Origin: Sediminibacterium sp. KACHI17
GTDB taxonomy: Bacteria > Bacteroidota > Bacteroidia > Chitinophagales > Chitinophagaceae
Length of the DNA stretch: 64,000 nt
Reading direction: 5' to 3'
Assembly: GCF_040362915.1 (NCBI RefSeq)
Contig: NZ_AP029612.1
Coordinates: forward strand, 1 to 64,000
In this document: positions 13,351-51,868 of the stretch, one piece after another
Layout: the number at the start of each line of letters is the position of its first letter
How positions within the stretch are numbered: the stretch's first letter is position 1
Notes under the pieces: model-generated
What the model saw: the letters and a program-made list of their open reading frames with translations, nothing else
Databases searched by the model: none
What the model was told of the DNA's origin: nothing
Position numbers and translations under genes: made by a program

Positions 13351-14456
13351 TTGCTGATATATTTTTTCTCTAATTGAGCAAATAAGATCATTGATTTATC
13401 AGAGAAATGAAATCGGCTTTTAGACTTTTTAGCTGTTTTATTATAAAGTCTGATAAAATCAAATGGATTGTATAAAACCCTTAATAGGCTCTTCCTTCCC
13501 TTTACTTGTAGTATTGTCTTGGCCATGTAATAACCATGCGGATGAGCGCCCAATGGAAATAGACTGCGAATGATAACAGCATTTGTTTTCATGAGAGAGG
13601 GAGTATCAGCAATAGCTATTAAGAGTGTATCTACTTTTTCTAAATTTTTATAAGGGTTATTATAATGTTCTGAGTACAAGTTATACAAAAAACTGTTACT
13701 AGTATTGGGATGTGACAAGAACCATTCTATATTGATGAGATCGGCTATCCCTTCGAGCTGAAGTTGAAAAATAGCATTGAGTAATGGTCCAGCATCGTCT
13801 GTTTCATTCAGGTGTATTTTTTTTCTGAAAGAATAAGTATAAAAATGATGTATTTCATGACCTAATACAGCAATAAGATTGTCTTCATCAACAGACAATA
13901 GATCTATTACTATGGCTTGATCATTTGCATTAGATTGGGGATGAAACAAACCGAATCCAATTGTTGGTTTTATTTCTTGTGATAGTGCAACTTTAGTAAG
14001 ATAAGGACTGGCTTTTTCTTTTGCTTCTTCAAATAAATTTCTCTTTTGCAATTCTCGTGCAAATGAATCAATATGATTTTTTTTTGCTTTAGCCTTTTTC
14101 AAGTGTTCTAATACCTGCTTTTCCCATTTATTTTCTCTTACGAGGCTGTCACAGATATTTTTCCTAGAAGGCATAAACGCTGTCATTATCATTCTCTTCA
14201 TATAGCGTTCTTGCCCCCATTTGGCATAAAATGAATAAAACGGAGCATCAAATAGTTGTTTCCAAGTGGTACTATCCGGAAGCAGATCTTTAGATAATAG
14301 CGCTTCAATTGGCCAAAATAGTTGAACGCCTGTAAAATCAATTTTTACTTGTTGTGCTTGTATTGGCGATTTATTGATTGAAAGGATTAATAGTGCAATG
14401 ATCATCATTTTTGTAAACCGACTTCTCAAGCTGTAATGATATTTAGCAAAGCTCAT
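13347..14456 (-). CDS. Exported HExxH zinc metallopeptidase-like protein
   Basis: A 369-residue protein with a hydrophobic export signal at about 17-35 (ending PIQAQ). The zinc motif VLGHEIHHFY supplies His 200, Glu 201 and His 204, and the downstream EGIAD (Glu 235) resembles the third-ligand helix of gluzincins. It may belong to the family Pfam calls DUF5700, from memory and not checked. The start overlaps the stop of the LytTR regulator by 4 bases, so it is translationally coupled as the third gene of the kinase-regulator-peptidase operon. This makes it a likely output or regulated component of that system. The stop shares a TTAA with the convergent aspartyl-protease-like gene. Confidence 0.75.
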   Translation of the reverse strand: MSFAKYHYSLRSRFTKMMIIALLILSINKSPIQAQQVKIDFTGVQLFWPIEALLSKDLLPDSTTWKQLFDAPFYSFYAKWGQERYMKRMIMTAFMPSRKNICDSLVRENKWEKQVLEHLKKAKAKKNHIDSFARELQKRNLFEEAKEKASPYLTKVALSQEIKPTIGFGLFHPQSNANDQAIVIDLLSVDEDNLIAVLGHEIHHFYTYSFRKKIHLNETDDAGPLLNAIFQLQLEGIADLINIEWFLSHPNTSNSFLYNLYSEHYNNPYKNLEKVDTLLIAIADTPSLMKTNAVIIRSLFPLGAHPHGYYMAKTILQVKGRKSLLRVLYNPFDFIRLYNKTAKKSKSRFHFSDKSMILFAQLEKKYISN

Positions 14457-15172
14457 CGGTTATTAGTTGCTTCCATTAAGCTTTGTATCAATTCCTTGTA
14501 ACCTCTTCCGATTGGAATATTTCTCCCTTGAATTTCTACATCAGCTGCACTATAGGCATCGATCTTATTTTTTGGAACAATAAAAGATCGGTGGATACGT
14601 AAAAAACCGCTCTTGCCTAATTCGTTTTCCAGATGTGAAAGTTGGGTTTTAGTAACGATTGTCTTTCCATTGGTGGTATAGATCTTTACATATTCTTTTA
14701 ATCCTTCAATAAATAAGATATCATCTAGCAATACCCTGATTCTTTTTTTATTGACGTTAAAAAAGATAGACGGTTTCTCATTCGGAAATACAGGCTGATT
14801 GCTTGACGTCATGTTATTTTGATGTGTCAACTTATTTACAGCCATCAAAAATCGATTGAACTCTATTGGTTTTAATAAATAGTCAAGTACGCCTAGTTCA
14901 AAACCTTGTAAGGCATACTCATTATAAGCAGAAGTGATGATGATTTGTGGAGGATTCTTGATCATTTTGATGAATTCCATACCCTTGATCTTTGGCATAT
15001 GTATATCAAGGAACATCAGATCTACTTTTTCCTTCTGTAATATTTCCATTGCATACAAAGCATCCGAGCATATTGCGATGTTTTTCAGAAAGGGTACTTG
15101 AGAAATATAATCACTCAGTATCTCAGCAGCGATGGGTTCGTCTTCTACGATGATGGTGTTATAAAGTTGCAT
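14453..15172 (-). CDS. LytTR-family response regulator
   Basis: A transcription factor receiving phosphate from the adjacent LytS-type kinase. The receiver domain (about 1-120) has the acidic pair in IIVEDEP and phosphoacceptor Asp 56 in LMFLDIHMP. The C-terminal LytTR DNA-binding domain (about 138-235) has the hallmark DDILFIEGLKEYVKIYT and FLRIHRSFIVPKNKI segments. The 239-residue length is standard. Its start overlaps the kinase gene by 14 bases and its stop overlaps the HExxH peptidase by 4 bases, indicating tight coupling of all three. LytTR regulators usually bind direct repeats upstream of targets; I could not identify those repeats here. Confidence 0.93.
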   Translation of the reverse strand: MQLYNTIIVEDEPIAAEILSDYISQVPFLKNIAICSDALYAMEILQKEKVDLMFLDIHMPKIKGMEFIKMIKNPPQIIITSAYNEYALQGFELGVLDYLLKPIEFNRFLMAVNKLTHQNNMTSSNQPVFPNEKPSIFFNVNKKRIRVLLDDILFIEGLKEYVKIYTTNGKTIVTKTQLSHLENELGKSGFLRIHRSFIVPKNKIDAYSAADVEIQGRNIPIGRGYKELIQSLMEATNNR

Positions 15173-16262
15173 TTTTTGAAAGGTTTATGGTTAGGGTTAC
15201 TTTAAACGTCTCAGGGGTTAAATTAATTTTTAGATCATGTTCAGGATATAGTAATTCAAGTTGTCTTTTTACATTTTTCAAGCCAATTCTTTCAGGTGCT
15301 TTTCCTTCATTCTCTGATTTAGAGTTTTCAATCGAAAACAGTAGATGTCCTTTTTTTAAAAATGTATGAATTTTAATATAGGAGTGAAACCTGGTCTCAC
15401 TTAGACCATGTTTAAATGCATTTTCAACGAAGGGAATCAGAATCAGTGGTGTGATCTGTTGTTCAAGATGATCTATGTCCTCTGTATATTCAATATCCAA
15501 GCGAGTTCCGTATCGAAGTTGTTCTAATTCAATATAATCTTTTACCACTTTTAGCTCATCAGCTATGTTGATAGAGGATTGCGCTGTTTCATATAACATA
15601 AAACGAAGCAGTTTGGATAATTTCATCACGACTTCTGCGGTATCATCTGATTTTTTTCGAGCCAGTCCGTATATATTATTTAGCGTATTGAATAAAAAGT
15701 GTGGATTGATCTGCGATTTAAGAAATTGCAACTCTGTTAATAATTTTTTTCGAGCAGTTTCTTCTTCTCTTTTTCGAATTTGAAGATTGATGCGTACCAG
15801 TTTAATTGCCAAAGCTGTACCACAGAGAAATGCCAGCACAAATGCATTGTATAAGATAGATGATATACCAATATCCAATAAATCATCACCGGGTAGTCCG
15901 TAGATATAGGGCAGAACAAAAAGGTCATTAAAAACCGTAAAAAGAAATGTTCCGGCTAATAATAAAATCAAAGAGCAAAAAAATGTTTTAACGACTCCCC
16001 AGTTTTTTGTGTTGAATTGATTAACTATAGCAAATAGAGTATATACCAATGGTACTTTGATGAGCAAAAATGACAGTTGCGCTTTTACAGATGTATTGAA
16101 AATATCTATAAATGGGATTGGGTCCTTGCCTCGTGGATAGGAAGCGATATTGAGGTAGGTTTTATAAGACACATACGCTAGCCAGAATAAGGTATGGTGT
16201 ATGATTCTTTTTTTCACTGAGGTTGTATTAATGACCAGGGGTAGAGCATTTTTAAAATTCAT
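15159..16262 (-). CDS. LytS/YehU-type sensor histidine kinase
   Basis: A membrane sensor kinase of 367 residues. Four hydrophobic segments lie roughly at 22-42, 60-80, 92-112 and 133-156. A short coiled coil leads to the His_kinase motif LKSQINPHFLFNTLNNIYG with phosphoacceptor His 188, and the C-terminal ATPase domain has the N-box LIPFVENAFKHG and G-box RIGLKNVKRQL. All catalytic motifs are intact, unlike the homologue at 49207. I prefer the ATG at 16262 (MNFKNALP); a TTG 42 bases upstream would add an untypical N-terminus. It is the first gene of the three-gene operon with the LytTR regulator and peptidase. The signal sensed is unknown. Confidence 0.9.
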   Translation of the reverse strand: MNFKNALPLVINTTSVKKRIIHHTLFWLAYVSYKTYLNIASYPRGKDPIPFIDIFNTSVKAQLSFLLIKVPLVYTLFAIVNQFNTKNWGVVKTFFCSLILLLAGTFLFTVFNDLFVLPYIYGLPGDDLLDIGISSILYNAFVLAFLCGTALAIKLVRINLQIRKREEETARKKLLTELQFLKSQINPHFLFNTLNNIYGLARKKSDDTAEVVMKLSKLLRFMLYETAQSSINIADELKVVKDYIELEQLRYGTRLDIEYTEDIDHLEQQITPLILIPFVENAFKHGLSETRFHSYIKIHTFLKKGHLLFSIENSKSENEGKAPERIGLKNVKRQLELLYPEHDLKINLTPETFKVTLTINLSKNATL

Positions 16263-16548
16263 ATAAATCAGTGATGAATTCTTACTAAATATACCAAAAA
16301 TCAATAAGTATGTCTAAACAGCAATTTGTGCCGAATCAATGTATTTAATGCGTAAATTATTTCATTTTGTATATCTTAATACGTAATTGGTAGAAATACT
16401 TAAGGATATAAAATATTAGAGACTACTTTCAGAACATACATATGGTTCATTCATTTGGTGATGCTCACTTATTCAAGATGAATCATTGGAGAGATCGCAA
16501 AAATGATAAAATCACCAAATGACTTTAACCTTCATTGAACAACCTATT

Positions 16549-33700: not shown

Positions 33701-36700
33701 CATCAACAGTGGATATCACTTTGGTGAATAATGCAGCCCCATCCACAGCTGCATTGGTAAGCGCTGCAACATTGACCAATTGTAACAATAGCAACTTTAC
33801 AGTTCAAGCAGTAGTGCCTACGACAGGGAGCGGTACATGGAGTGTGATTAGTGGCACTGCAACGATCGCAAATTTGACAAGCACGACAACGAATGTTTCT
33901 GGTGTTACAGCGGGTGAAACGGTTGTACTTAGATGGACAGTGAGCAATGGTACCTGCACACCATCAACAGTAGATATCACTTTGGTGAACAATGCATCCC
34001 CATCCACAGCTGCATTGGTAAGCGCTGCAACATTGACCAATTGTAACAATAGCAACTTCACTGTTCAAGCAGTAGTACCAACGACAGGAAGTGGAGCATG
34101 GAGTGTGATTAGTGGCACTGCAACGATTGCTAATTTAACGAATACGACGACGAATGTTTCGGGTGTAACAGCCGGACAGACTGTGGTACTTAGATGGACA
34201 GTAAGCAACGGAACCTGTACACCATCAACAGTAGACATTACCCTAGTCAATAATTTAGGTCCTTCGTCTGCAACTTTAACTACAGCTGCAAGTTTAACGA
34301 ATTGTAATAATGATGTATTTAATATAGGCGCAGTAACACCAACCACAGGAACAGGAGTTTGGACGGTTGTGAGTGGTACTGCTACCATTGCAAATGCAAA
34401 TGCTACAAGTACATCTGTATCCAATGTTACTGCAGGAAATACAGCAGTACTTCGTTGGACGGTGAGCAGTCCGGGTTGTACTTCTAATACTGTTGATGTT
34501 ACTTTAATTAACAATGCATTGCCATCCACAGCAGGATTGATAAGTCCTGCAACATTGACCAATTGTAACAACAGCAACTTTACGGTTCAAGCAGCCGTGC
34601 CTACGACAGGAAGCGGCACATGGAGTGTGATCAGTGGCACTGCATCGATCGCGAATTTGACAAGTACCACAACGAATGTTTCGGGTGTAACAGCGGGTGA
34701 AACGGTTGTACTTAGATGGACAGTGAGTAATGGTACCTGCACACCATCAACAGTAGATATCACTTTGGTGAACAATGCATCCCCATCCACAGCTGCATTG
34801 GTAAGCGCTGCAACATTGACCAATTGTAACAATAGCAACTTTGCAGTTCAAGCAGTAGTGCCTACGACGGGGAGCGGTACATGGAGTGTGATTAGTGGCA
34901 CTGCAACGATCGCAAATTTGACAAGCACGACAACGAATGTTTCTGGTGTTACAGCGGGTGAAACGGTTGTACTTAGATGGACAGTGAGCAATGGTACCTG
35001 CACACCATCAACAGTAGATATCACTTTGGTGAACAATGCATCCCCATCCACAGCAGCATTGGTAAGCGCTGCAACATTGACCAATTGTAACAATAGCAGC
35101 TTTACAGTTCAAGCAGTAGTGCCTACAACAGGAAGCGGTACATGGAGTGTGATTAGTGGCACTGCAACGATCGCTAATTTAACGAATACGACAACGAATG
35201 TTTCGGGTGTAACGGCTGGACAGACAGTGGTACTCAGATGGACAGTAACCAACGGAACCTGTACACCATCAACAGTAGACATTACCCTAGTCAATAATTT
35301 AGGCCCTTCGTCTGCAACCTTAACTACAGCTGCAAGTTTAACGAATTGTAATAATGATGTATTTAATATAGGCGCAGTAACACCAACCGTGGGTACGGGA
35401 GTTTGGACGGTTGTGAGTGGTACTGCTACCATTGCAAATGCAAATGCTACAAGTACATCTGTAACAAATGTTACTGCAGGAAATACAGCAGTACTTCGTT
35501 GGACGGTGACCAGTCCAGGTTGTACTTCTAATACTGTTGATGTTACTTTAATTAACAATGCATTGCCATCCACCGCCGCATTGGTAAGCGCTGCAACATT
35601 GACCAATTGTAACAATAGCAACTTTACGGTTCAAGCAGCCGTGCCTACGACAGGAAGTGGCACATGGAGTGTGATTAGTGGTACAGCAACGATCGCCAAT
35701 TTAACGAATACGACAACGAATATTTCGGGTGTAACGGCCGGACAGACTGTGGTACTCAGATGGACAGTAAGCAACGGAACCTGTACACCATCAACAGTAG
35801 ACATTACCCTAGTCAATAATTTAGGTCCTTCGTCTGCAACTTTAACTACAGCTGCAAGTTTAACGAATTGTAATAATGATGTATTTAATATAGGCGCAGT
35901 AACACCAACCGCAGGAACGGGAGTCTGGACGGTTGTGAGTGGTACAGCAACTATTACAAATGCAAATGCTACAAGTACATCTGTATCCAATGTTACTGCA
36001 GGAAATACAGCAGTACTTCGTTGGACGGTGAGCAGTCCAGGTTGTACTTCTAATACTGTTGATGTTACTTTAATTAACAATGCATCACCATCCACAGCTG
36101 CATTGATAAGTCCTGCAACATTGACCAATTGTAACAATAGCAACTTTACAGTTCAGGCAGCCGTGCCTACGACAGGAAGTGGCACATGGAGTGTGATCAG
36201 CGGTACTGCAACGATCGCCAATTTAACGAATACGACAACGAATGTTTCGAGTGTAACAGCGGGTGAAACGGTTGTACTTAGATGGGCAGTGAGTAATGGA
36301 ACTTGTACACCATCAACAGTGGATATCACTTTGGTGAATAATGCAGCCCCATCCACAGCTGCATTGGTAAGCGCTGCAACACTGACCAATTGTAACAATA
36401 GCAACTTTACGGTTCAAGCAGCCGTACCTACAACAGGAAGTGGAACTTGGAGTGTGATCAGTGGTACAGCAACGATCGCCAATTTAACGAATACGACAAC
36501 GAATGTTTCTGGTGTAGCTTCAGGTGAAACAGTGGTACTTAGATGGACAGTGAGTAATGGAACTTGTACACCATCAATAGTGGATATTACCTTGGTGAAC
36601 AATGCATTGCCATCTACAGCAGCATTGATAAGTCCTGCAACATTGACCAATTGTAATAATAGCAACTTTACAGTTCAAGCAGCAGTACCTACGACAGGAA

Positions 36701-39700
36701 GCGGTACATGGAGTGTGATCAGTGGCACTGCAACGATCGCTAATTTAACGAATACTACAACGAATGTTTCGGGTGTTACAGCGGGTGAAACGGTTGTACT
36801 TAGATGGACAGTGAGTAATGGAACTTGTACACCATCAACAGTGGACATCACTTTGGTGAACAATGCAACGCCATCCACCGCCGCATTGATAAGTCCTGCA
36901 ACCATAACCAATTGTAATAATGGAAATTTTGCAGTTCAAGCAGTAGTGCCTACGACAGGAAGCGGTACATGGAGTGTGATTAGTGGCACTGCAACGATTG
37001 CTAATTTGACAAGCACCACAACGAATGTTTCTGGTGTAAAAGCGGGTGAAACGGTTGTACTTAGATGGACAGTAAGCAATGGTACCTGCACACCATCAAC
37101 AGTAGATATCACTTTGGTGAACAATGCATTGCCATCTACAGCAGCATTGATAAGTCCTGCAACATTGACCAATTGTAACAATAGCAACTTCACTGTTCAA
37201 GCAGTAGTACCAACGACAGGAAGTGGAGCATGGAGTGTGATCAGTGGCACTGTAACGATTGCTAATTTGACGAATACTACAACGAATGTTTCGGGTGTAG
37301 CTTCAGGTGAAACGGTTGTACTTAGATGGACAGTGAGCAATGGTACCTGTACACCATCAACAGTGGACATAACTTTGGTGAACAATGCATCACCATCCAC
37401 AGCAGCATTGGTAAGCGCTGCAACATTGACCAATTGTAACAACAGCAACTTTACGGTTCAAGCAGCCGTGCCTACAACAGGAAGCGGTACATGGAGTGTG
37501 ATCAGTGGTACAGCAACGATTGCTAATTTAACGAATACGACAACAAATGTTTCGGGTGTAACGGCCGGACAGATAGTGGTACTCAGATGGACAGTAAGCA
37601 ACGGAACCTGCACACCATCAACAGTTGATATCACTTTGATCAACAACGCTGCTCCATCTGTTGCCAATGCAGGTACTAATCAGGTCAATTGTAATAATGG
37701 TTCTTTTACCATGGCAGCTTTAACTCCTACTGTGGGTACAGGTAGTTGGAGTATCATAAGTGGATTAGCCACTATTATAAGCTCAAATCTTACTAATACA
37801 TTAATTACAAGTATTCCTGTAGGAACCAGCACTACCTTACGGTGGTCTGTGAACAATGGACTTTGTCCGGCTTCAGTCGCTGACATTATTTTAACCAATG
37901 CTGAATCCGTAAATGCAGGATCGAATATTATTATTAACTGCGTTACTACTGCTAAACTTTCTCCTGCATTAAGTGGACAAGTTTGGACAACATCAATTTC
38001 AAATCCTTCTGCAGCCTCGATCAATAGTAATGGTGAAATAATCGGTCTGATTAAAAAAGGTATTTACCAGTTTACATTGGCCAATGCCAATTGTTCCGCA
38101 ACTATTACTGTGACAAAAAATAATTGTCCTCCTGTTGCTTTGAATGATACACAAACAGTTAGAAATGATCAAATACTTACCGGAACCTTAAAGCCAAAAG
38201 TATCTGATCCGGATAGTGATGTTTTAACACTTTCATTAATTGTTTCACCCACTAGAGGAACAATTGTATTCAATACTGATGGTACATACACTTATACACC
38301 AACAACCGATTATGTTGGAACTGATTCTATTACTTATCGTGTATGTGATACTGACGGTCTTTGTGCTGAAGCTAAATTATATATCAACGTTACTGGCACG
38401 CCGAAACCTCCAGTAGCCATTAATGATTCACTGATCACTACCAAGAATACTCCCGTCAATGGAAACGTTTTGACCAACGATTATAATTTTGGAACAAATA
38501 CGAATACAGGATTAACAGTTACAACGACACCTGTATTACCTCCTGCAAACGGAACAGTTTTATTGAATGCTGATGGTACATTCACTTATACACCTGCCCA
38601 TAATTTTACCGGTCTTGATTCATTTAAATATGTAATCTGTAATGCCATTGCTTTATGTGATACTGCCACAGTATACATCAGTATCAATGAGCCCCCTTCA
38701 CTTCAGCCAAAATTAGAAATTGAAAAAAGGATCGATCCTTCGAAGATTCAATATGGAACTGGGGAAACTGTTACTTACACTGTTGTTGCAAAGAGTACGG
38801 GTAATACAGCGGTTCATAATATCTCGGTACTGGATATACTTCCGGTAGCTACAAAAATTACCAACGTAAAAATCAATAATGGTAGTCCAACTGCTGGAAC
38901 TGCATCTTATGAATCCATTACTAACATAATATTCTGGTCAATTCCGCTTTTGGGTGTAGGTGACTCAGCTATATTAAAGTATACATTGGTACTCGCAGAT
39001 TCAGGGGTCTTGAAAAATGTAGCTACGATCTCATCTCCAATGATCCCAGGCATAAGTGATACAGCTTCATTATCTATTCTGGTTGTCAATCAGGCGGATA
39101 TCAAGATATCCAAATTCCTTAGAGCACCTGCAGTCATTAGTGTGAATGATGAGATCGGATTTACAATGATTGCAGAAAATTTTGGTCCTGCTATCGGTAC
39201 TGAAGTAGTAGTACAAGATAGCTTATATGCCAATCTAAGTGATCCAAGAAGTATGACGGTGAATATTGGGAAAGTGAGTTACGATCCGGTTACTCGAAAA
39301 ATAACCTGGCGTATCGATACACTATTGGTTGGACAAAAAGATAGTCTAGTGATTCGTGTAAAAGTGCTATCGGGTGGACAAATCAAGAATGGCGCTACCG
39401 TTCGTGCTAAACAGTCGGATCCTGTTTCCGGCAATAATGGATCAGTAGTTTCAAATATTACAGGTGGACAAGTCTTAGTAGAAGGAAAAGAGTTTTTTAT
39501 TCCTTCAGTCTTTACTCCAAATGGAGATGGTAAGAATGATAAGTTCGTCATCCTGGGGCTTAACCGCTTTCCAGGATCTGAATTAATCATATATAACAGA
39601 TGGGGCAATGTAGTGTATCAATCAAAAGATTATAAAAATGATTGGACAGGGAATGGATTGAATGAAGCTACTTATTACTATACCCTGAACCTTAAAACAA

Positions 39701-39747
39701 CATCTGGTATTCAAAAGATGGCTGGATGGGTTCAGATATTGAGATGA
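30787..39747 (+). CDS. Giant T9SS-secreted repeat adhesin with type B sorting domain
   Basis: A surface protein of about 2986 residues. A signal peptide (VVFFCFSTVMVFG) leads into a unique N-terminal region of about 580 residues and a DUF11-like domain (VCVGTEVTYTF-like, NNGPNNSGDVTVSF). Then come 18 exact-length 87-residue repeats, one degenerate repeat, two VCBS/cadherin-like modules (PPVALNDTQTVRND; DGTYTYTPTTDYVGTDSITY), two DUF11 modules and the type B sorting domain ([28 protein letters not shown], ending GWVQILR). It is the substrate of the second PorP-PorE cassette, with PorP starting 20 bases downstream. I chose the ATG at 30787, preceded by TTGGAGAGA, over a TTG at 30775. Adhesion, gliding or matrix binding is inferred from SprB-like architecture. 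Confidence 0.9.
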   Translation: MGNRNNIVKRFLGVVFFCFSTVMVFGEGSKDLYPKTGSTGFRASLLSTPTTGPNAVISSNSAVGIRFPNPGRQFVYAKFGEVIHVGSSAQGVVGDGFSSQTGTINLVAPNGTTYTSGTSTTVGKINFQSEEEVGPSLTIGDGGYTSYSRTVGLGEEGIWVIDFVAPNQTAIPGSDANSDLNATSLAVANGFTSTIHQQTKSRYIVAWDVTVVTAGVRQTGRVYQTVFSADLGLGANSLCDKAKFYVVSKDGYQYLVEPKAGFRPFQFAFFANNKGVRYNTGANAGLSAYRSAKNTDVENAFSDPSKPYDYHVPSDADDGTNITYKLFYNTPDNVNLPDTASIANSIYGSSSTWLFPSAPVIPTLTDLALVGKEGTPGKFSTTAPLTGGFITFNSNQAGAYRILIDANNDGDYTDNVDLTLRGDAVAGANSIAWDGKDGLGNLLTNTTTIKVNAVTLAGEVHFPLADAEKNLNGIQITRLNGTGSPNYTVYWDDQFLNFTGDVGASSPLTNLDNGSGQSSITNGHKWGTSGGGSGAGIFGDQAVIDTWTNVFSADQNLNVTITSQVADLEIVSLVGNLTNICVGTEVTYTFIARNNGPNNSGDVTVSFVVPTELTNLSVVSASVTSGTATGVGGTFSGTTFTDVLNMDNGAVVTYVVKGTIGSYPSGGNLNTSARILRAADVTDPDATNDDTSPPTDPTTECNGAPSGVGCNNIKNLTTTVNALPSTAALVSAATLTNCNNSNFTVQAVVPTTGSGTWSVISGTATIANLTNTTTNVSGVTAGETVVLRWTVSNGTCTPSTVDITLVNNALPSTAALVSAATLTNCNNSNFTVQAVVPTTGSGTWSVISGTATIANLTNTTTNVSGVTAGQTVVLRWTVSNGTCTPSTVDITLVNNALPSTAALVSAATLTNCNNSNFTVQAVVPTTGSGTWSVISGTATIANLTNTTTNVSGVTAGQTVVLRWTVSNGTCTPSTVDITLVNNAAPSTAALVSAATLTNCNNSNFTVQAVVPTTGSGTWSVISGTATIANLTSTTTNVSGVTAGETVVLRWTVSNGTCTPSTVDITLVNNASPSTAALVSAATLTNCNNSNFTVQAVVPTTGSGAWSVISGTATIANLTNTTTNVSGVTAGQTVVLRWTVSNGTCTPSTVDITLVNNLGPSSATLTTAASLTNCNNDVFNIGAVTPTTGTGVWTVVSGTATIANANATSTSVSNVTAGNTAVLRWTVSSPGCTSNTVDVTLINNALPSTAGLISPATLTNCNNSNFTVQAAVPTTGSGTWSVISGTASIANLTSTTTNVSGVTAGETVVLRWTVSNGTCTPSTVDITLVNNASPSTAALVSAATLTNCNNSNFAVQAVVPTTGSGTWSVISGTATIANLTSTTTNVSGVTAGETVVLRWTVSNGTCTPSTVDITLVNNASPSTAALVSAATLTNCNNSSFTVQAVVPTTGSGTWSVISGTATIANLTNTTTNVSGVTAGQTVVLRWTVTNGTCTPSTVDITLVNNLGPSSATLTTAASLTNCNNDVFNIGAVTPTVGTGVWTVVSGTATIANANATSTSVTNVTAGNTAVLRWTVTSPGCTSNTVDVTLINNALPSTAALVSAATLTNCNNSNFTVQAAVPTTGSGTWSVISGTATIANLTNTTTNISGVTAGQTVVLRWTVSNGTCTPSTVDITLVNNLGPSSATLTTAASLTNCNNDVFNIGAVTPTAGTGVWTVVSGTATITNANATSTSVSNVTAGNTAVLRWTVSSPGCTSNTVDVTLINNASPSTAALISPATLTNCNNSNFTVQAAVPTTGSGTWSVISGTATIANLTNTTTNVSSVTAGETVVLRWAVSNGTCTPSTVDITLVNNAAPSTAALVSAATLTNCNNSNFTVQAAVPTTGSGTWSVISGTATIANLTNTTTNVSGVASGETVVLRWTVSNGTCTPSIVDITLVNNALPSTAALISPATLTNCNNSNFTVQAAVPTTGSGTWSVISGTATIANLTNTTTNVSGVTAGETVVLRWTVSNGTCTPSTVDITLVNNATPSTAALISPATITNCNNGNFAVQAVVPTTGSGTWSVISGTATIANLTSTTTNVSGVKAGETVVLRWTVSNGTCTPSTVDITLVNNALPSTAALISPATLTNCNNSNFTVQAVVPTTGSGAWSVISGTVTIANLTNTTTNVSGVASGETVVLRWTVSNGTCTPSTVDITLVNNASPSTAALVSAATLTNCNNSNFTVQAAVPTTGSGTWSVISGTATIANLTNTTTNVSGVTAGQIVVLRWTVSNGTCTPSTVDITLINNAAPSVANAGTNQVNCNNGSFTMAALTPTVGTGSWSIISGLATIISSNLTNTLITSIPVGTSTTLRWSVNNGLCPASVADIILTNAESVNAGSNIIINCVTTAKLSPALSGQVWTTSISNPSAASINSNGEIIGLIKKGIYQFTLANANCSATITVTKNNCPPVALNDTQTVRNDQILTGTLKPKVSDPDSDVLTLSLIVSPTRGTIVFNTDGTYTYTPTTDYVGTDSITYRVCDTDGLCAEAKLYINVTGTPKPPVAINDSLITTKNTPVNGNVLTNDYNFGTNTNTGLTVTTTPVLPPANGTVLLNADGTFTYTPAHNFTGLDSFKYVICNAIALCDTATVYISINEPPSLQPKLEIEKRIDPSKIQYGTGETVTYTVVAKSTGNTAVHNISVLDILPVATKITNVKINNGSPTAGTASYESITNIIFWSIPLLGVGDSAILKYTLVLADSGVLKNVATISSPMIPGISDTASLSILVVNQADIKISKFLRAPAVISVNDEIGFTMIAENFGPAIGTEVVVQDSLYANLSDPRSMTVNIGKVSYDPVTRKITWRIDTLLVGQKDSLVIRVKVLSGGQIKNGATVRAKQSDPVSGNNGSVVSNITGGQVLVEGKEFFIPSVFTPNGDGKNDKFVILGLNRFPGSELIIYNRWGNVVYQSKDYKNDWTGNGLNEATYYYTLNLKTTSGIQKMAGWVQILR
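32947..37644 (+). repeat. 18 tandem 261-bp repeats in the giant adhesin
   Basis: The units keep a strict 261-bp period from 32947 without a single indel. Fifteen are type A (NNA.PSTAAL ... WSVISGTATIANLT ... SNGTCTPSTVDITLV). Three are type B (NNLGPSSATL ... WTVVSGTATIANANATS), at 34252-34512, 35296-35556 and 35818-36078. Each unit has two Cys (TNCNN and GTC or GCT) placed for one internal disulfide, and an Ig-like beta-sandwich is likely. Units 2 and 3 are almost identical at the DNA level. Confidence 0.95.
37645..37905 (+). repeat. Degenerate nineteenth repeat unit of the adhesin
   Basis: It keeps the same length class and landmarks (NCNNGSFTMAALTPTVGTGSW, SIISGLATI, LRWSVNNGLCPASVADI) but with many substitutions, so it is an old edge copy flanking the homogenised array. 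Confidence 0.8.
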
Positions 39748-40788: not shown

Positions 40789-42831
40789 ATGAAGTACTCT
40801 CTTTTTTTGTTGATCTTCATTTCTTACACCCTCAGCGCTCAGGAACAACCTTCCTTAGATAAAATAGCTGACAGACATTTTATAAAATATGAATACGCAT
40901 TAGCAGTGCCTCTCTACGAAAGACTGCTTGATCAACGAAAAATTAAAAATGACTGGTTGTTCAAGGCTGCATTTTGCTATGAATCTATGCTGCAATATGA
41001 AAGAGCAGTTTATTGGTACCAACAGCTGTTACAAAAAGATACTATAGTAGAACCAGATCTTATTTTACATGCAGCCGACCTGATGAAAACCTTACAGAAA
41101 GCTGATACTGCTATATACTGGTACCAACAATATTTATTAAAAAGTGGTGATTCGATAAGAGCCTTGCAAAGAATACAAGGAACTGTAAAGGGTATCGAAT
41201 GGATGAATCATCCTACCCGGCATGAAATCATGAATAAGATCGATATTAATACAAACTTATCTGATTGGGGAAGCTCTTTATATAAAGATGAGTTGATCTA
41301 TGTTTCAGAACAAAAAAGAAAGATCAATGGAGCCTATGCAAACAATAATAGGATCTATAGCTGGAATGATAACCCTTATCTCAGTTTGCAAGTCACCAAT
41401 CGATTGAAGCAAGGTGCGCTGATTCATGAGATCATTCAAAAAATGAATGATTATGATTATCATGTCGGACCTGTTGCATTCACAAAAAATCTCGACACAC
41501 TTTATTACACAAGAACATATAGAAAAGCAAATGATCATTTTCAAAAACCATTTAAGAGATTCAGGATAGCAACAAGACACCTTGAAATATTATACATTTT
41601 CAAAACAGGCGTAAATACCTGGAGTAAACCCAAAGAATTGATCAGTGGTAAAGGGACACAGTTTAGTATAGGTCATGCCACTTTATCACAAAATGGAGAC
41701 GTATTATATTTTGCTTCTGATATGCCGGGTGGATACGGGAAAACAGATATTTGGTATTGTGAAAAAGAAGCGAATGGTAATTGGAGTGCTCCTAAAAATT
41801 GTGGCGCCTTGATCAATACGCCAGACGAAGAAGCTTTTCCTGTCATTGATCCAAATTCCGGGGACATTTACTTTGCCAGCACGGGTCATATAGGAATGGG
41901 GGGGTATGATATATTTCAATCCTCTGGTTCTCGTAGCACATGGAGTCATTCCGAAAATCTTCTTTATCCGATCAATAGCACATATGATGATTTCTATTTC
42001 GTAGTAAAGAATCAGTATGAGATGTACTTGTCTTCCAACAGACCGGATGGCAAGGGATCAGACGATATTTATGCCGTTCTGCTTCCAATACCCAAACAAG
42101 ATAAGCAGGCAATATTACCTAAACCCACAACACTCGTTATCAGAACTAAAGTATTGAATCGACAAACCCAAGAACCAATTTCATCATCACTGGTGCAAAT
42201 GACGAATTTGCTGGAAAATAGCAAGGTAGATCATGAAACAAATGAAGACGGACTGACATATCATGTTGTGCCTTGTAATAGTCACTATCGCGTAAAGGCC
42301 AGTAAAACTTTTTATGAATCTGATAGTTCCGGATTGATTTTTCCGGATTGCTCGAAAATAGATACCATGGATGTTCTTCTTTATCTCAATCCTTTTACTC
42401 CAAAAATTGATACACCTAAAATTGTAGGTCCTGCTAAAAGAGTATCCAGGTTTAAAGTAGGGGATACATTCGTATTAAATGATCTGTATTATGATCTGGA
42501 TAAGTACAATATCAGAGCTGACGCGGCTAAAATATTGGATAGTTTAGTTACGATTCTCAATACTTATCCTGAGATTGATATTGAATTATCTTCTCATACA
42601 GACAGTAGGGCCAGTGATGCATACAATGATAAATTATCCCAGAATAGAGCTATTTCTGCAGTTAATTATCTCATTAAACATGGTATTGACAAAAAACGAT
42701 TACAGGCACGTGGTTATGGCGAAAAAAGACTTAGAAACCATTGCGCAGATGGTGTTAAATGTTCTGAAGCCTTACACCAATTGAACAGAAGAACTGAGGT
42801 GCGGGTGACAAATGTGAGGGCGCTTGACTAA
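40789..42831 (+). CDS. PorE-like TPR / PD40 / OmpA protein
   Basis: A 680-residue exported protein (signal ending YTLSAQ) with the full PorE domain order. TPR helices are at about 20-130 (AFCYESMLQYERAVYWYQQLL). A PD40 propeller lies at about 150-440 (VLYFASDMPGGYGKTDIWY, YLSSNRPDGKGSDDIYAV), then a carboxypeptidase-regulatory-like domain (about 450-540). An OmpA-type peptidoglycan-binding domain closes the protein (DLYYDLDKYNIRADAAKIL, SSHTDSRASDAYNDKLSQNR, ARGYGEKRL). In Porphyromonas, PorE of this architecture tethers the T9SS to peptidoglycan. The ATG at 40789 is 13 bases after the PorP stop. It is the last gene of the second cassette and of the island. Confidence 0.9.
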   Translation: MKYSLFLLIFISYTLSAQEQPSLDKIADRHFIKYEYALAVPLYERLLDQRKIKNDWLFKAAFCYESMLQYERAVYWYQQLLQKDTIVEPDLILHAADLMKTLQKADTAIYWYQQYLLKSGDSIRALQRIQGTVKGIEWMNHPTRHEIMNKIDINTNLSDWGSSLYKDELIYVSEQKRKINGAYANNNRIYSWNDNPYLSLQVTNRLKQGALIHEIIQKMNDYDYHVGPVAFTKNLDTLYYTRTYRKANDHFQKPFKRFRIATRHLEILYIFKTGVNTWSKPKELISGKGTQFSIGHATLSQNGDVLYFASDMPGGYGKTDIWYCEKEANGNWSAPKNCGALINTPDEEAFPVIDPNSGDIYFASTGHIGMGGYDIFQSSGSRSTWSHSENLLYPINSTYDDFYFVVKNQYEMYLSSNRPDGKGSDDIYAVLLPIPKQDKQAILPKPTTLVIRTKVLNRQTQEPISSSLVQMTNLLENSKVDHETNEDGLTYHVVPCNSHYRVKASKTFYESDSSGLIFPDCSKIDTMDVLLYLNPFTPKIDTPKIVGPAKRVSRFKVGDTFVLNDLYYDLDKYNIRADAAKILDSLVTILNTYPEIDIELSSHTDSRASDAYNDKLSQNRAISAVNYLIKHGIDKKRLQARGYGEKRLRNHCADGVKCSEALHQLNRRTEVRVTNVRALD

Positions 42832-42868
42832 AATGACCTTTTATATATTTCATTTGTATTCTCTAATT

Positions 42869-42888
42869 CCCCTTAGTAATTTAAGGGG
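42869..42888 (+). terminator. Hairpin after the PorE-like gene
   Basis: CCCCTTA/TAAGGGG forms a 7-bp stem with a 6-base loop 37 bases after the stop, but without a clear T-run. It may be a weak terminator or a leader hairpin for the protease gene that starts at 42923. Confidence 0.4.
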
Positions 42889-42922
42889 CTATTCACCAAT
42901 TGCTTATCAGAAAACAAACCAT

Positions 42923-45900
42923 ATGAAAAACAAGAGTTCGGGTATCCATAAGATACTCTCATTATTCGTGCTCTTATGCACAGGAAGTACCTTATTGGCT
43001 CAGGGAACGATGTTACTACGTCAACCCAATGCCAGTAAAGATCATATCGTCTTTGTTCATGCAGATGATATTTGGGTTGCCAATATTAACGGTGGTGATG
43101 CCCGTAGATTAACATCTGCTATTGGAACAGAATTAAATCCCAAAATTAGTCCCGATGGTAAATGGGTGGCCTTTACAGGTCAGTATGATGGAAACTTTGA
43201 TGTTTATGTTGTATCCATTGATGGTGGTGAACCCAAAAGAATGACATGGCACCCCGGTGCTGATGTAGTTCATGGTTGGTTACCTGATGGAAGTGGCATT
43301 TATTTTACTTCAGGAAGGGAAGGATACCCAACGGTGAATACAAAATTCTTTATTGTCAATATCAAAGGAGGTACACCTACTGCAATGCCTTTGCCTTTTG
43401 GCTTTTCCGGAACTCTGTCTCCCGATGGCCAGACCATGGCATTCTTACCTTATAGCTTATGGGATCCTGAATGGAGAAATTATCGTGGTGGACAGGCGCA
43501 GCCTATCTGGTTATTCAATATGAAAACCTTTGAAACCATTAAAACCAAACAAGGTGATAAAGAAAGACATAGCAGTCCCACCTGGAACAATGGTATTTTA
43601 TATTTCTTATCTGAACAAGACTATATTAATAATGTATGGTCTTATGATCCAAAGACAAAAGTGCAAAAGCAAATCACGTTCCATAAAGATTTTGATATCA
43701 AGAATGTTTCAGCCGCTAATAACAAATTGATCTATGAGCAGGGAGGTTATTTGCATAGCTACGATATCACTACACAAAAAACACAAAAGCTGGAAATACA
43801 TGTCAAAGGTGATTTGAATTGGGGACGTGCACGTTGGAATAACCTGACCGGTGCTAATTTGATCAACGCTAGTTTATCTCCAACAGGAAAACGTGCATTA
43901 TTTGAAAGTAGGGGTGAGATATTCACTGTTCCGAAGGAAAATGGCGATTGGAGAAATATCACAAACTCAACAGGAGCTGCAGACAGAGCTCCAGTTTGGT
44001 CGCCTGATGGACAAAAGATCGCGTGGTTTTCTGATGCAAGTGGTGAATATCAGTTAATGGTAAAAGATCAATTTGGGTTACAGGAGGCGCAAGCTTTTCC
44101 TATTCCTAATAAGAAGTTTTATTTCACACCAGCTTGGTCGCCGGATAGTAAATACATCGCATTTACAGATACGGATTATAATATCTGGTATATGGATGTG
44201 AAAACAGGTGCCATCAAAAAAGTGGATACAGATCGTTATGCGCATCCCAATAGAACCATGAAACCTGTTTGGTCGCCGGATAGTAAATGGATTGCTTATG
44301 TACAAATACAAAACAATCAGTTCAAAGCTGTGAAAGTGTATAATCTGGAAACGGGTGTTAGTAAGCAAATCACAAATGGATTATCCGATGCTATTGATCC
44401 GCAGTGGGATGAAAGCGGAAAATATTTATACTTTTTGGCTAGCACAGATTTTGGTTTAGCAACCGGTTGGTTGGATATGAGTAATTATAACTATCCTGTT
44501 ACACGCGCACTGTATATCGCAGTACTTAGTAAAGATGTGCCATCTCCATTCGAACCAAAAAGTGATGATGAGCCCGTTAAGAATCCTGCCGATACTGCTG
44601 CCAAGCAAACCAAACCTGCTACTGCATCAAAAGGGGTACAGGTTAAAATTGATTTTGAAGGCTTAGATCAACGCATCATCGCAGCGAACATACCGATGCG
44701 TGATTATACCGGATTGATTGCAGGCCCGGATGGTACCGTTTTCTATTTGGAAAGTGTTCCTAATCAGCCGGGTCTTGTTTTGAACCGATACAGTACTAAA
44801 GATCAGAAAACAACCGAGTTCGCAAGATCTGTCAATGCTGCAACGACGAGTGAAGACCGCAAAAATTTATTGTATCGCTCAGGACCAGGTTGGTATATCG
44901 TTGGTACCGCTGTAGCACCTCGTCCGGGGGAAGGTCGCTTAGCAACAGATGGAATGAAAGTGTATGTAGATCCGGGTAAAGAAGCTGAGCAGATCTACAA
45001 AGAGGGCTGGCGTTTACAAAGAGACTTTCTCTACGTGGATAACGTACATGGTGCTCCATGGGATAAGATCTATGATTGGTACAAACCTTGGGTAAAACAT
45101 GTGAAACACAGATCAGATTTGAATTATATCATTGATATCATCAGTGGAGAAGTCGCTGTCGGACATTCTTATGTGAATGGTGGAGACTTCCCCGATGTAC
45201 CTACAATTCCGGGTGGATTATTAGGAGCGGATTATCAAGTCGAAAATGGCTATTTCAAAATCAAGAAAATATATACCGGTGAAAATTGGAACCCTGAATT
45301 AAGATCACCATTAAGTGGTCCGGGGATCAATGTAAAAGCAGGAGATTATTTATTGGAAGTGAATGGACAAAAACTAGATGCGTCCATGAATCTGTATAGC
45401 TTGTTTGAGGGTACGGCAAATAGACAAATCAAGATTCGAGTGAACAGTAAACCTACTTGGGAAGGCTCACAATTGATTACAGTAGTTCCTATAGCCAATG
45501 AAGGTGCACTTCGCTCGAGAGATTGGGTAGAGGGAAATCGTAGAAAAGTGGATGAGCTTTCAGGTGGAAAATTGGCTTATGTATATGTACCCAATACAGG
45601 TGATCCTGGATATACTTCATTCAATCGTTATTATTTTTCACAACAAGATAAACAAGGTGCGATCATTGATGAAAGAAACAACGGAGGTGGATCTGCAGCT
45701 GACTATATGATCGATGTGATGAGTAGAAAGTTGCAAGGATATTTCAATAATAGGGTAGAAGGACATCGCGTGTCTACAACTCCGATGGCTGGTATCTGGG
45801 GACCTAAAGTGATGATCATTAATGAGAATGCTGGTTCAGGCGGTGACCTGTTACCTTATATGTTCAGAAAAATGAAATTAGGACCATTAGTGGGTACAAG

Positions 45901-46189
45901 AACATGGGGAGGATTGGTTGGTACTTGGGATACGCCACCATTTATTGATGGAGGAAGAATGGTAGCACCCAGAGGTGGCTTTTTTGATACTGATGGGAAA
46001 TGGGCCGTGGAAGCTGAAGGAGTAGCCCCGGATATTGAAGTATTCCATGATCCAAAAGCGATCATTGAAGGTCGTGATCCGCAACTGGAGCGAGCTGTAC
46101 AAGAAGCTTTACGTTTGATGCCTACACAAGGAATTGAACTAAAGAAAGAACCATCTCCACCCATTCGATCATTCCGTCCGAAGAATTAG
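42923..46189 (+). CDS. Tricorn-like S41-type serine protease with PDZ domain, exported
   Basis: A 1088-residue peptidase resembling the tricorn protease. The signal peptide ends STLLAQG. An N-terminal pair of WD40-like propellers covers about 30-550 (ISPDGKWVAFTGQYDGNFDVYVVS, WSPDGQKIAWFSD, PVWSPDSKWIAYVQ). A linker and PDZ domain follow (ISPL.GPGINVKAGDYLLEVNGQ-type), then the C-terminal catalytic domain. That domain contains the nucleophile segment NENAGSGGDLLPY and the Glu of AVEAEGVAPDIEV. Tricorn-type enzymes trim short peptides; with the signal peptide this one acts in the periplasm or at the surface. The ATG at 42923 is preferred because the 33-residue upstream extension covers a hairpin and precedes the signal. 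Confidence 0.9.
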   Translation: MKNKSSGIHKILSLFVLLCTGSTLLAQGTMLLRQPNASKDHIVFVHADDIWVANINGGDARRLTSAIGTELNPKISPDGKWVAFTGQYDGNFDVYVVSIDGGEPKRMTWHPGADVVHGWLPDGSGIYFTSGREGYPTVNTKFFIVNIKGGTPTAMPLPFGFSGTLSPDGQTMAFLPYSLWDPEWRNYRGGQAQPIWLFNMKTFETIKTKQGDKERHSSPTWNNGILYFLSEQDYINNVWSYDPKTKVQKQITFHKDFDIKNVSAANNKLIYEQGGYLHSYDITTQKTQKLEIHVKGDLNWGRARWNNLTGANLINASLSPTGKRALFESRGEIFTVPKENGDWRNITNSTGAADRAPVWSPDGQKIAWFSDASGEYQLMVKDQFGLQEAQAFPIPNKKFYFTPAWSPDSKYIAFTDTDYNIWYMDVKTGAIKKVDTDRYAHPNRTMKPVWSPDSKWIAYVQIQNNQFKAVKVYNLETGVSKQITNGLSDAIDPQWDESGKYLYFLASTDFGLATGWLDMSNYNYPVTRALYIAVLSKDVPSPFEPKSDDEPVKNPADTAAKQTKPATASKGVQVKIDFEGLDQRIIAANIPMRDYTGLIAGPDGTVFYLESVPNQPGLVLNRYSTKDQKTTEFARSVNAATTSEDRKNLLYRSGPGWYIVGTAVAPRPGEGRLATDGMKVYVDPGKEAEQIYKEGWRLQRDFLYVDNVHGAPWDKIYDWYKPWVKHVKHRSDLNYIIDIISGEVAVGHSYVNGGDFPDVPTIPGGLLGADYQVENGYFKIKKIYTGENWNPELRSPLSGPGINVKAGDYLLEVNGQKLDASMNLYSLFEGTANRQIKIRVNSKPTWEGSQLITVVPIANEGALRSRDWVEGNRRKVDELSGGKLAYVYVPNTGDPGYTSFNRYYFSQQDKQGAIIDERNNGGGSAADYMIDVMSRKLQGYFNNRVEGHRVSTTPMAGIWGPKVMIINENAGSGGDLLPYMFRKMKLGPLVGTRTWGGLVGTWDTPPFIDGGRMVAPRGGFFDTDGKWAVEAEGVAPDIEVFHDPKAIIEGRDPQLERAVQEALRLMPTQGIELKKEPSPPIRSFRPKN

Positions 46190-49206: not shown

Positions 49207-50247
49207 TTATAAGGGTATACAAACCGCTGCCTTGATCATGCCAGCTTCAGGAGTATCTACCAGAATACGGGCTTTTTGTCCATATACACTGTAGATGCGT
49301 TTTCTGATCTCACTCAGATGCTCATTTTCCATTTCCAGATAGTTGGATAAATTTCCTGAGCTGATAACGCCAAAACAATGCAGGTCCTCTTTGTATTCAG
49401 AATAAATATCAATACTACCTGTCTTGATCTGATCATCAAAACCATGCCGGATCGCTTTTTCTACAAGGTTTTGGATCACCATGGCAGGCACAGGCTGGTC
49501 TAATGTATCTTCTTCAATATCGTATTGAACAAATAATTGATCTGCAAACCGAATCTGCTCCAATGCGATATAGTCTTTGATGATCGATAATTCTTTTTCG
49601 AATAGCGTTTTTTCTGCTTTGTCTACCTGAATGCTATTACGTAGAATATTACTCAACATCGTGATGGCCTTTCTAGCTCTCACCGGATCATCTGTAACAA
49701 GTGAACGGATACTATTCAAACTGTTGAATAAAAATTCAGGATTGATATGCGATTTTAAAGTAGTGATCTCCAGTTCACTTAATAGGTTTTCGAGTTTAGC
49801 CTGTTCAATATTCTGTTCTCTGGTTTTTTGTACATAGTGATAAGTGAAGTATAAAAGATTCCAGATCAGCACAAAGTGGAAATATGAAAAAGCAAATCGG
49901 ATCGCTATATTTAAAAATGAGAATCCTGAGAGATTAAACGATTGAATATCCAGCCATGATTCTGTAGCTACAATACAGACGCCGATAAAAAATGAAAATA
50001 CTAGGGAAAGAACGGTTAGCGAAAATATCTGTTTTTGTAAACTGAGTTTTAGGATCCTCAATCGCTGAATCACCATGCGCATGATATGCGTGAGCCAAAA
50101 CCCGATAAAAACATGTGTAAGTAATTGTTCAAAAAAATAGGGTTGAGGAGCAGCGCGTATGGATAAATAAAAGAAAATATAGATCAAGCAGTAGAGTGAC
50201 CAGCCTGCTGTTTGGAAGATCCAATAAGTTCTTTGATGTTTATTCAT
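49207..50247 (-). CDS. LytS-type histidine kinase homologue with degenerate catalytic motifs
   Basis: A 346-residue membrane protein with about four hydrophobic segments in the first 150 residues and a His_kinase/HATPase C-terminal half. The catalytic signatures are altered. The phosphoacceptor motif reads LKSHINPEFLFN instead of LKSQINPHFLFN, with Glu (GAA at 49735-49737) in place of His. The N-box reads NLVEKAIRHG, with Lys in place of the metal-binding Asn. No G-x-G-L G-box is found. No response regulator lies beside it. It is therefore probably a pseudokinase that senses or scaffolds without phosphotransfer. It is transcribed divergently from an M28 peptidase gene and converges with the NahK-like gene. 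Confidence 0.85.
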   Translation of the reverse strand: MNKHQRTYWIFQTAGWSLYCLIYIFFYLSIRAAPQPYFFEQLLTHVFIGFWLTHIMRMVIQRLRILKLSLQKQIFSLTVLSLVFSFFIGVCIVATESWLDIQSFNLSGFSFLNIAIRFAFSYFHFVLIWNLLYFTYHYVQKTREQNIEQAKLENLLSELEITTLKSHINPEFLFNSLNSIRSLVTDDPVRARKAITMLSNILRNSIQVDKAEKTLFEKELSIIKDYIALEQIRFADQLFVQYDIEEDTLDQPVPAMVIQNLVEKAIRHGFDDQIKTGSIDIYSEYKEDLHCFGVISSGNLSNYLEMENEHLSEIRKRIYSVYGQKARILVDTPEAGMIKAAVCIPL

Positions 50248-50337
50248 ATGGGACTAAGATATTAAATATGTGCATATTCACTCAGGTTATATAGATGTTC
50301 GGACCAATACCGGTTAAATCGGGTAAATGATCTATTC

Positions 50338-50372
50338 ATAGATTATTCTCCTCATCTTCAGTAATAATCTAT
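50338..50372. promoter_or_regulatory. Inverted repeat in the divergent kinase/peptidase promoter region
   Basis: ATAGATTATT at 50338-50347 and AATAATCTAT at 50363-50372 form a perfect 10-bp inverted repeat with a 15-base spacer, ending 26 bases before the M28 peptidase start. It could be an operator or a leader hairpin. Confidence 0.4.
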
Positions 50373-50398
50373 AAATTCCACGTTCATAAATACCTGTT

Positions 50399-51868
50399 AT
50401 GATCAAAAAAATCACTACCGGATTAACAGCTATACTGTTAATCAATACTGTTGTCATTGCACAGGCAAAACAAGAGTGGAATACAATTTTCAAAGCCATT
50501 AATGATGAAGTACAACAAAGTTCAAAAGCATATAGTACTTTAAAAGAAGCTACCGAAACCATCGGGCATCGTCTTACAGGCTCCAAAAATGGAGAGAAAG
50601 CCGAGGCATATGCATATAACCTACTGAAATCATATGGTTTTAAAGATGTGAAGTATCAGCCTTTTGAAGTAGAAAGCTGGAGTAGAGGAACCCTATCTAT
50701 TCAGATCGGTACGGATCGATCTTCTTTAAAAGAAGTAAAATCTGTTTCCTTGGCTCATTCACCCGTAGCAGCCGATGTTACGCTGGAAGTAGCTGATATG
50801 GGCAATGGATTAGAAGAAGATTATTTGGCAAATCCCGGTAAAGTAACGGGAAAGATCGCGCTTGTTTATTTAGGTGTGTTGCCAGGCTCTAAACAAGGTA
50901 CCAGAAGTTTGCATCGCTCTGAAAAAACAGCATTGGCTACCAAATATGGTGCGAAAGGAATCATCATCATCAATACCGCTGATGGGGGAATTCTGTTAAC
51001 GGGTACAGCATCTGTTACAGGTAAATTGATTCCTATTCCGGCAGTTTGTATTGGTAAAGAGGATGGAATGGCTTTCAAAGCTGAAGTAGCAAAAGCGACG
51101 CATTATGCTCATATCAAAATGACCAATTTCTCGGGCATGATCAAAGCCAGGAATGTGATCGCTACCATAAAAGGTAAAACACTCCCTAATGAAAAGATCG
51201 TAGTTGGTGGGCACTTAGATAGCTGGGATCTGGCAACAGGTGCTATCGATAACGGTATCGGATCTTTCTCTGTATTAGACATGGCTCGCACCTTCAAAGT
51301 GCTAAAACTACAACCACAAAGAACCATTGAGTTCGTTATGTTCATGGGAGAAGAAGAAGGATTATTAGGATCAAAAGCTTATGTAGAACAAGCCATTAAG
51401 AACAAAACGATCGATCAGTTGCGTTATATGCTGAATTATGATATGACCAATGACCCTAAGGGATATTCAACCACTGCAGAAGAAAGCAAAGAATTGTTTC
51501 AGTCGATCGGTGCCATTGCAAAAAGTATTGATACCAGTTTTACCAATTTATTCAGAAGTGGTGCTGGACTACACAGCGATCATCAGCCGTTCATGTTACA
51601 TGGAGTACCTACAGGCGGAGCGGCAGGGGGCAGGTTACCCAATAATGCCGGACCTTGTTATCACGCAGATTGTGATGACTTTAAATTAGTAGATCCACAA
51701 GGAATGAAAAACACAGTACGATTCAATGCCATGTTATTATATGGTATTGCAGATGCTGATATCATTAAAGCCAAACATTTCACTGACGCCGAAACCAGAG
51801 AATTTCTATTAAAGAATAATCTGAAAGAACCACTGAAAATTGCGGGTGAATGGCGTTGGGAGGACTAA
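50399..51868 (+). CDS. Exported M28-family metallopeptidase (carboxypeptidase Q-like)
   Basis: A 489-residue di-zinc exopeptidase with a signal peptide ending VVIAQA. A protease-associated (PA) insert occupies about 120-250. The M28 metal ligands appear in order: VGGHLDSWDLATGAIDNG (His, Asp, Asp), FMGEEEGLLGSKAY (Glu pair), MLNYDMTND (Asp) and the final His in CYHADCDDF. The order and the PA insert resemble plasma glutamate carboxypeptidase. It is one of two M28 enzymes here, the other being at 61856. It is transcribed away from the degenerate LytS homologue and ends at a shared convergent terminator. Confidence 0.92.
   Translation: MIKKITTGLTAILLINTVVIAQAKQEWNTIFKAINDEVQQSSKAYSTLKEATETIGHRLTGSKNGEKAEAYAYNLLKSYGFKDVKYQPFEVESWSRGTLSIQIGTDRSSLKEVKSVSLAHSPVAADVTLEVADMGNGLEEDYLANPGKVTGKIALVYLGVLPGSKQGTRSLHRSEKTALATKYGAKGIIIINTADGGILLTGTASVTGKLIPIPAVCIGKEDGMAFKAEVAKATHYAHIKMTNFSGMIKARNVIATIKGKTLPNEKIVVGGHLDSWDLATGAIDNGIGSFSVLDMARTFKVLKLQPQRTIEFVMFMGEEEGLLGSKAYVEQAIKNKTIDQLRYMLNYDMTNDPKGYSTTAEESKELFQSIGAIAKSIDTSFTNLFRSGAGLHSDHQPFMLHGVPTGGAAGGRLPNNAGPCYHADCDDFKLVDPQGMKNTVRFNAMLLYGIADADIIKAKHFTDAETREFLLKNNLKEPLKIAGEWRWED

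Follow-up and report, generated by a model that had tools for sequence, protein, structure and literature searches.

What does a histidine kinase homologue do once it has lost the residues required for catalysis, in a gene that selection nevertheless keeps? This question is raised by a LytS-type protein encoded in a 64,000-nucleotide stretch of DNA, hereafter the window, from the 3.14-Mb, single-contig genome of a freshwater Sediminibacterium (G000 in what follows; its genus relatives are likewise Sediminibacterium). To our knowledge, natural pseudo-histidine kinases are few and come mostly from single model systems. We also found no report of a LytS-type protein without the acceptor His, or of the Sediminibacterium system, in the open-access literature, which is by itself weak evidence of absence. 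The original prediction for this gene, made from the DNA of the window, was that of a maintained pseudokinase, perhaps sensing for or titrating another LytS/LytTR pair.

Results

The protein is a clear member of the PF06580 family, scoring 78.7 bits against a curated cut-off of 25.2, and it shares with the LytS/YehU(BtsS)-type kinases the membrane sensor, the NPxFLFN helix and the order of the DHp and CA domains (Table 1). It differs from them in that the features of an active kinase, that is, the acceptor His, the N-box Asn, the GxG(L/I) motif of the lid and an adjacent LytTR regulator, are all missing. In particular, the acceptor-site motif reads LKSHINPEFLFN, with Glu171 encoded by GAA at 49735-49737 on the minus strand (a strand that the original prediction of this replacement had not given), the N-box reads VEKAIRHG, with Lys264 encoded by AAA at 49456-49458, and the lid region, NLSNYLEMENEHLSEI, is devoid of GxG. 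These three losses had been predicted, as had the lack of an adjacent response regulator, and indeed none adjoins the gene within the 64-kb window. With its catalytic residues gone from a conserved and selected gene, the protein is, as far as its sequence goes, like the pseudo-histidine kinases of the class that includes DivL, RocA and FasC.

Table 1. Features of the pseudokinase locus and of the LytS/LytTR pair in the window
Feature	Position	Strand	Remarks
LytS-type (PF06580) pseudokinase gene	49207..50247	-	346 aa, ATG start; 11 orthologues in genus
N-terminal membrane sensor module	49798..50247	-	Residues 1-150, with predicted membrane helices; family type A (sensor tree, AU tests, AF2 helices)
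DHp-like domain	49528..49797	-	Residues 151-240; most conserved part; 66% identity to core LytS of own genome
Codon 171	49735..49737	-	GAA, Glu replacing phosphoacceptor His
CA-like domain	49210..49527	-	Residues 241-346; least conserved part, frame intact
Codon 264	49456..49458	-	AAA, Lys replacing N-box Asn
ATP-lid region	49306..49353	-	Residues 299-314, without GxG; predicted within single continuous helix 300-322
M28 peptidase (PA + M28)	50399..51868	+	Divergent neighbour; found in 109 of 147 genus genomes
LytS kinase, partner in original prediction	15159..16304	-	Intact: NPHFLFN, VENAFKHG, IGLKN
LytTR response regulator	14453..15172	-	Paired with the 15159 LytS

The loss of these motifs is more than would be expected by chance, since His and Asn, together with the second Gly of the lid, are present in all 93 comparison kinases, which are active homologues from the genus and the family (the family kinases were first chosen by their likeness to the pseudokinase, with 40 lower-ranking loci added as a correction), and since the other seven of the eight PF06580 proteins in the same genome all retain the acceptor His, the N-box Asn and a lid of GxG or IGL type. 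What is more, each of these seven has one of the genome's ten LytTR matches about 1 kb away, and the pseudokinase alone has none. A strict DNA pattern covering Gln and Glu at the acceptor position (NP[QE]F.FN) matched 12 times in 396 family genomes, twice in LytS-type frames: in the pseudokinase itself and in one protein of G701. The latter (L198) carries Gln in place of the acceptor His (NPQFLFN), its N-box and GLGN lid being intact. As for a substitute acceptor, the original prediction had considered the His two residues before the Asn-Pro. This residue, His167, is an ordinary one, found in 84 of the 93 active kinases and sometimes replaced by Gln, and it therefore gives no sign of such a role.

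Of 147 Sediminibacterium genomes, 11, the source genome included, have an orthologue of the pseudokinase (more than 50% identity), and these orthologues form one branch in the tree (100/100). Their identity to the window protein is 93-94% in G090 and G094, 93% in G096 (where the gene is split across two contig ends), 72-73% in G105, G064 and G079 (the last with a short assembly gap within the DHp), 57% in G089, 56% in G061, 52% in G010 and 51% in G065. The lid motif is missing from all 11, and only its second Gly is retained in G010 and G065. At the acceptor position, G061, G010 and G065 have His, in the form NPHFIFN, and keep the Asn; G089, G105, G064 and G079 have Gln (NPQF); and G000, G090, G094 and G096 have Glu (NPEF), the N-box Lys being confined to this last group. 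One of the Gln orthologues (L064) is that of S. goheungense DSM 28323. Conservation of the Glu and the Lys among orthologues, on which the original prediction had placed weight, is thus limited to four of the 11, four others having Gln and three His. The simplest reading of this distribution is that the lid was lost first, that His then gave way to Gln and on to Glu, and that Asn was replaced by Lys last. Orthologues with intact His and Asn had been held to be the mark of a recent decay in one strain; they do exist, in three genomes, but, as they are only 51-56% identical and already without the lid, they point to an old, stepwise loss. Recent decay is ruled out by the 11 orthologues and by the low omega values given below.

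Since NG86 dN/dS values are saturated in many pairs, we used the YN00 values of near pairs. For the window gene, omega is 0.044 against G090 and 0.049 against G094, and for G105 against G079 it is 0.057, compared with 0.022-0.025 for the core LytS kinase of the genus (see below) in the same pairs. In other words, the pseudokinase is under strongly purifying selection, with an omega of about 0.04-0.06. Between the pseudokinases of G010 and G065 the value is 0.14, at low divergence. These dN/dS estimates, a check foreseen in the original prediction, together with 11 orthologues at one locus and an ordered loss of motifs, bear out its view of the gene as a maintained pseudokinase. A decaying pseudogene is hardly credible in this light: while the catalytic motifs are lost and the CA domain diverges fast, every complete copy has an open reading frame of the same length, the locus is conserved and, at an omega of about 0.05, the selection test contradicts decay.

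Selection does not act on all domains equally. Over ten genomes, the pseudokinase has a mean identity of 65% for the sensor, 78% for the DHp and 49% for the CA domain, compared with 77%, 96% and 84%, respectively, for the core kinase of the same genomes. The CA domain is thus the fastest domain of the pseudokinase, and the order of sensor and CA (DHp > sensor > CA) is the reverse of that in the active kinase (DHp > CA > sensor). Between G000 and G090, the pseudokinase DHp is 99% identical. Of the columns in which active kinases never vary, the pseudokinases retain 12 of 12 in the sensor, 31 of 48 in the DHp, 9 of 31 in the CA domain and none of the five in the lid. The acidic residues Asp185 and Glu197, invariant in active kinases, are altered in every pseudokinase read there, and Asn175, four residues past the acceptor position, is retained in all. 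The CA domain, too, is under purifying selection in near pairs, and so has some function that would be left unexplained if the protein served purely as a DHp partner.

An AF2 model of the pseudokinase (36 sequences, mean pLDDT of 80, pTM of 0.50) has its best PDB match in the kinase domain of GanS (6swk/6swj, E 3e-8, probability 1.00). In place of the lid, it has a single helix spanning residues 300-322 (pLDDT above 80), as opposed to a disordered lid at about residues 301-311 in the model of the core kinase (pLDDT below 50 at 306-310). These predictions support a kinase fold that is retained and a flexible lid that is lost. The earlier statement that the fold and the membrane part are kept is supported as well.

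With which system could such a protein interact? The original prediction proposed the LytS at 15159 and stated, correctly, that it retains all three motifs. As a partner, this kinase fares poorly: its orthologue is found in one other genus genome, G105, and the kinase is missing from the two closest relatives and absent in nine of the 11 pseudokinase carriers. The match to it in G064, at 37% identity, is not orthologous. Its DHp shares 33% identity with that of the pseudokinase, as against 66% for the core LytS at approximately 2.849-2.850 Mb in the same genome and 23-33% for the six LytS proteins other than the core one. Within each of the five genomes compared, the pseudokinase and the core kinase are 66-77% identical in the DHp and only 17-25% in the sensor. 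The core locus, consisting of LytS, LytTR and an M28 peptidase beside a gene that we take from its sequence to be dxs, is shared by the genus genomes that were read and by most of the other family genera examined. Because the DHp of a histidine kinase bears both its dimer and its regulator-docking surfaces, the high DHp identity makes the core LytS/LytTR the best-supported candidate for the target, and this genus-wide system at 2.85 Mb appears to be a better candidate for the partner than the 15159 pair. Co-occurrence is unable to single out the core kinase, as the latter is nearly universal in the genus. The common M28 neighbourhood is suggestive at most, for the two neighbouring peptidases belong to different subfamilies (24% local identity), and a segmental duplication common to this and the core locus was rejected; the genome holds nine strong M28 genes.

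The M28 peptidase is the divergent neighbour of the pseudokinase at all 11 orthologous loci, beyond which most of them share PAP2 and the block downstream, and in those genomes without the pseudokinase that were examined the M28 neighbourhood is retained with different genes upstream. No response regulator of its own lies beside the pseudokinase at the 11 loci. The G105 orthologue of the 15159/14453 LytS/LytTR pair is found directly downstream of the pseudokinase, and in G104 (L127), which has no pseudokinase, a LytS/LytTR pair is found directly upstream of the same M28 peptidase. Within the divergent intergenic stretch of 151 bp (50248-50398), CTAAGATATTAAATATG by the pseudokinase start is conserved across seven near species; no LytTR site was identified in this stretch.

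The core kinases of the family carry sensors of two types, B in Sediminibacterium and several other genera, and A in many other genera sampled. The sensor of the pseudokinase is of type A, as on the core kinases of other genera and unlike that of its own genome. AU tests on the sensor module reject its grouping with all type B sensors (p-AU 0.0035) and with the core kinase sensors of its own genus (p-AU 3e-72), although these tests are not fully independent of the sensor tree, from which the A/B labels themselves were drawn. In DHp and CA, the two types are not separated and B as one clade is rejected (p-AU 0.0065), which suggests that the sensor module was probably exchanged among core kinases. 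In other words, the core LytS of the family probably swaps its sensor module, A or B, at a fixed locus, with DHp and CA unchanged. The clearest exchange is that within one genus between G459 (type A) and G385 and G435 (type B), whose sensors are 29% and DHp domains 94-96% identical; sensor-exchange loci in one genus are L131, L146, L160 and L161. Grouping of the pseudokinase with the core kinases of its genus is not rejected, either at full length (p-AU 0.197) or for DHp and CA (p-AU 0.183), and therefore both duplication within the genus and transfer from another genus are candidates for its origin.

Discussion

The reading that we favour, and to which we would give about half of our confidence, is that the protein is a maintained, catalytically dead receptor subunit that acts through its DHp on the core LytS or its LytTR. 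The sequence shows that the lid motif, the acceptor His and the N-box Asn are gone and that strong purifying selection keeps the sensor and above all the DHp. Through its DHp, the protein would pair with the core LytS or dock onto the core LytTR of the same cell, deliver input through a type of sensor that is missing from the genus's own core kinase, and so tip that kinase towards its kinase or its phosphatase state. Those orthologues that branch off deepest, without the lid but with His and Asn, could be FasC-like, having a dead CA domain and a His that is phosphorylated in trans by an active partner, and the later loss of this His would have left a purely allosteric subunit. Several points speak against this reading: the pseudokinase is absent from most of the genus while the core system stays, which makes it an optional part; the DHp identity in part reflects common ancestry; Asp185 and Glu197 are changed; and selection still acts on the CA domain. 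One can go a step further and suppose, if only tentatively, that a single LytS pathway has its sensing and its catalysis divided between two proteins, with the type B core kinase providing catalysis, the type A sensor residing on its dead relative, and two inputs converging on one LytTR.

RocA, RetS and ChrS are not LytS-type proteins. RocA with CovS (PMC7028121) and RetS with GacS (PMC12189002) are pairs in which a kinase-like membrane sensor modulates an active kinase, the predicted acceptor His of RocA, H246, being kept but dispensable; a ChrS pseudokinase variant, which arose by frameshift in laboratory evolution, likewise modulates the active kinase HrrS (PMC9491836). FasC of group A Streptococcus is proposed to be a pseudokinase that pairs through its DHp with the active kinase FasB, and in the FasBC heterodimer its sensor and DHp suffice, the kinase domain being dispensable and His246 needed (PMC12675982). 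It differs from the protein studied here in this need for His246 and in being encoded with its partners, whereas the pseudokinase has lost the His and its gene stands alone. DivL of Caulobacter, a pseudo-histidine kinase found in nature, acts in regulator sensing (PMC4211667), but it is a PAS-domain cell-cycle protein and not LytS-type. By analogy, the pseudokinase may work like these proteins. Among LytS-type kinases, AlgZ/FimS of Pseudomonas aeruginosa has no identifiable G1, F and G2 boxes (PMC4064291) and in this resembles the G010 and G061 orthologues; however, it has an acceptor His (RPHFLFNSL) and a partner, AlgR, while the window protein has lost His and Asn as well. The AlgZ-like state, with His kept and the lid lost, is that of the orthologues in G010, G065 and G061. 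Lid loss alone is consequently no proof of inactivity in the LytS-type family, and the missing acceptor His carries more weight as an argument.

Could the protein nevertheless be a kinase, by way of unusual ATP binding and another His? The missing lid boxes of AlgZ and the fact that autophosphorylation of BtsS could not be observed (PMC5431176) lend this idea what appeal it has, but with His, Asn and lid all lost, and with His167 being ordinary in active members and sometimes Gln, we give it almost no credence. Action on the LytS/LytTR pair at 14453-16304 is very improbable as well, even though the pair shares the window with the pseudokinase and its orthologue is the downstream neighbour in G105, given that the pair occurs in only G000 and G105 of 147 genomes and that the DHp identity is so low.

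More serious are two readings in which the protein acts on a regulator. In one, which we regard as unlikely, it binds the core LytTR itself, either as a sink for the regulator or as a protein with phosphatase activity only, with no kinase pairing. No domain of the protein is better conserved than its DHp, which is also similar to the DHp of the core kinase, and in HisKA kinases it is the residue at His+4 that serves phosphatase activity, the position at which Asn175 is retained. That said, a simple sink needs no selected sensor, no phosphatase residue has been established for LytS-type kinases, and Asp185 and Glu197 are lost. In the other, which strikes us as rather improbable, the protein would serve a different LytTR output or read regulator phosphorylation in the manner of DivL. 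A stand-alone LytTR response regulator of the same genome (L097:2033-2809, at about 789 kb) is an example of such an output. It is present in nine of the 11 pseudokinase genomes compared with 17 among the 50 other large genomes of the genus (Fisher p 0.006, without correction for relatedness), but it was not found in the carriers G061 and G089, and it occurs in 19 genomes without the pseudokinase.

On the favoured reading of a dead receptor subunit, the locus would illustrate one way in which a two-component pathway may gain an input in bacteria, namely through a sensor that is retained on a catalytically dead kinase. The living species of one genus display a plausible order of loss, from the ATP-lid motif to the acceptor His and the N-box Asn, with the intermediates preserved. 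Such a stepwise series, in which the sensor and the dimerisation domain remain selected, allows direct testing of which loss alters the mode of action.

Two further observations concern the remainder of the window. In the near species G090 and G094, the homologues of window positions 2218-3924 and 42824-46189 adjoin, and the stretch 3924-42824, including the LytS/LytTR pair at 14453-16304, is mostly absent from that place. Finally, positions 30775-39747 hold an ORF of 2990 aa along with three equal antisense ORFs of 170 aa (at 34065, 35109 and 35631), which suggests long internal repeats.
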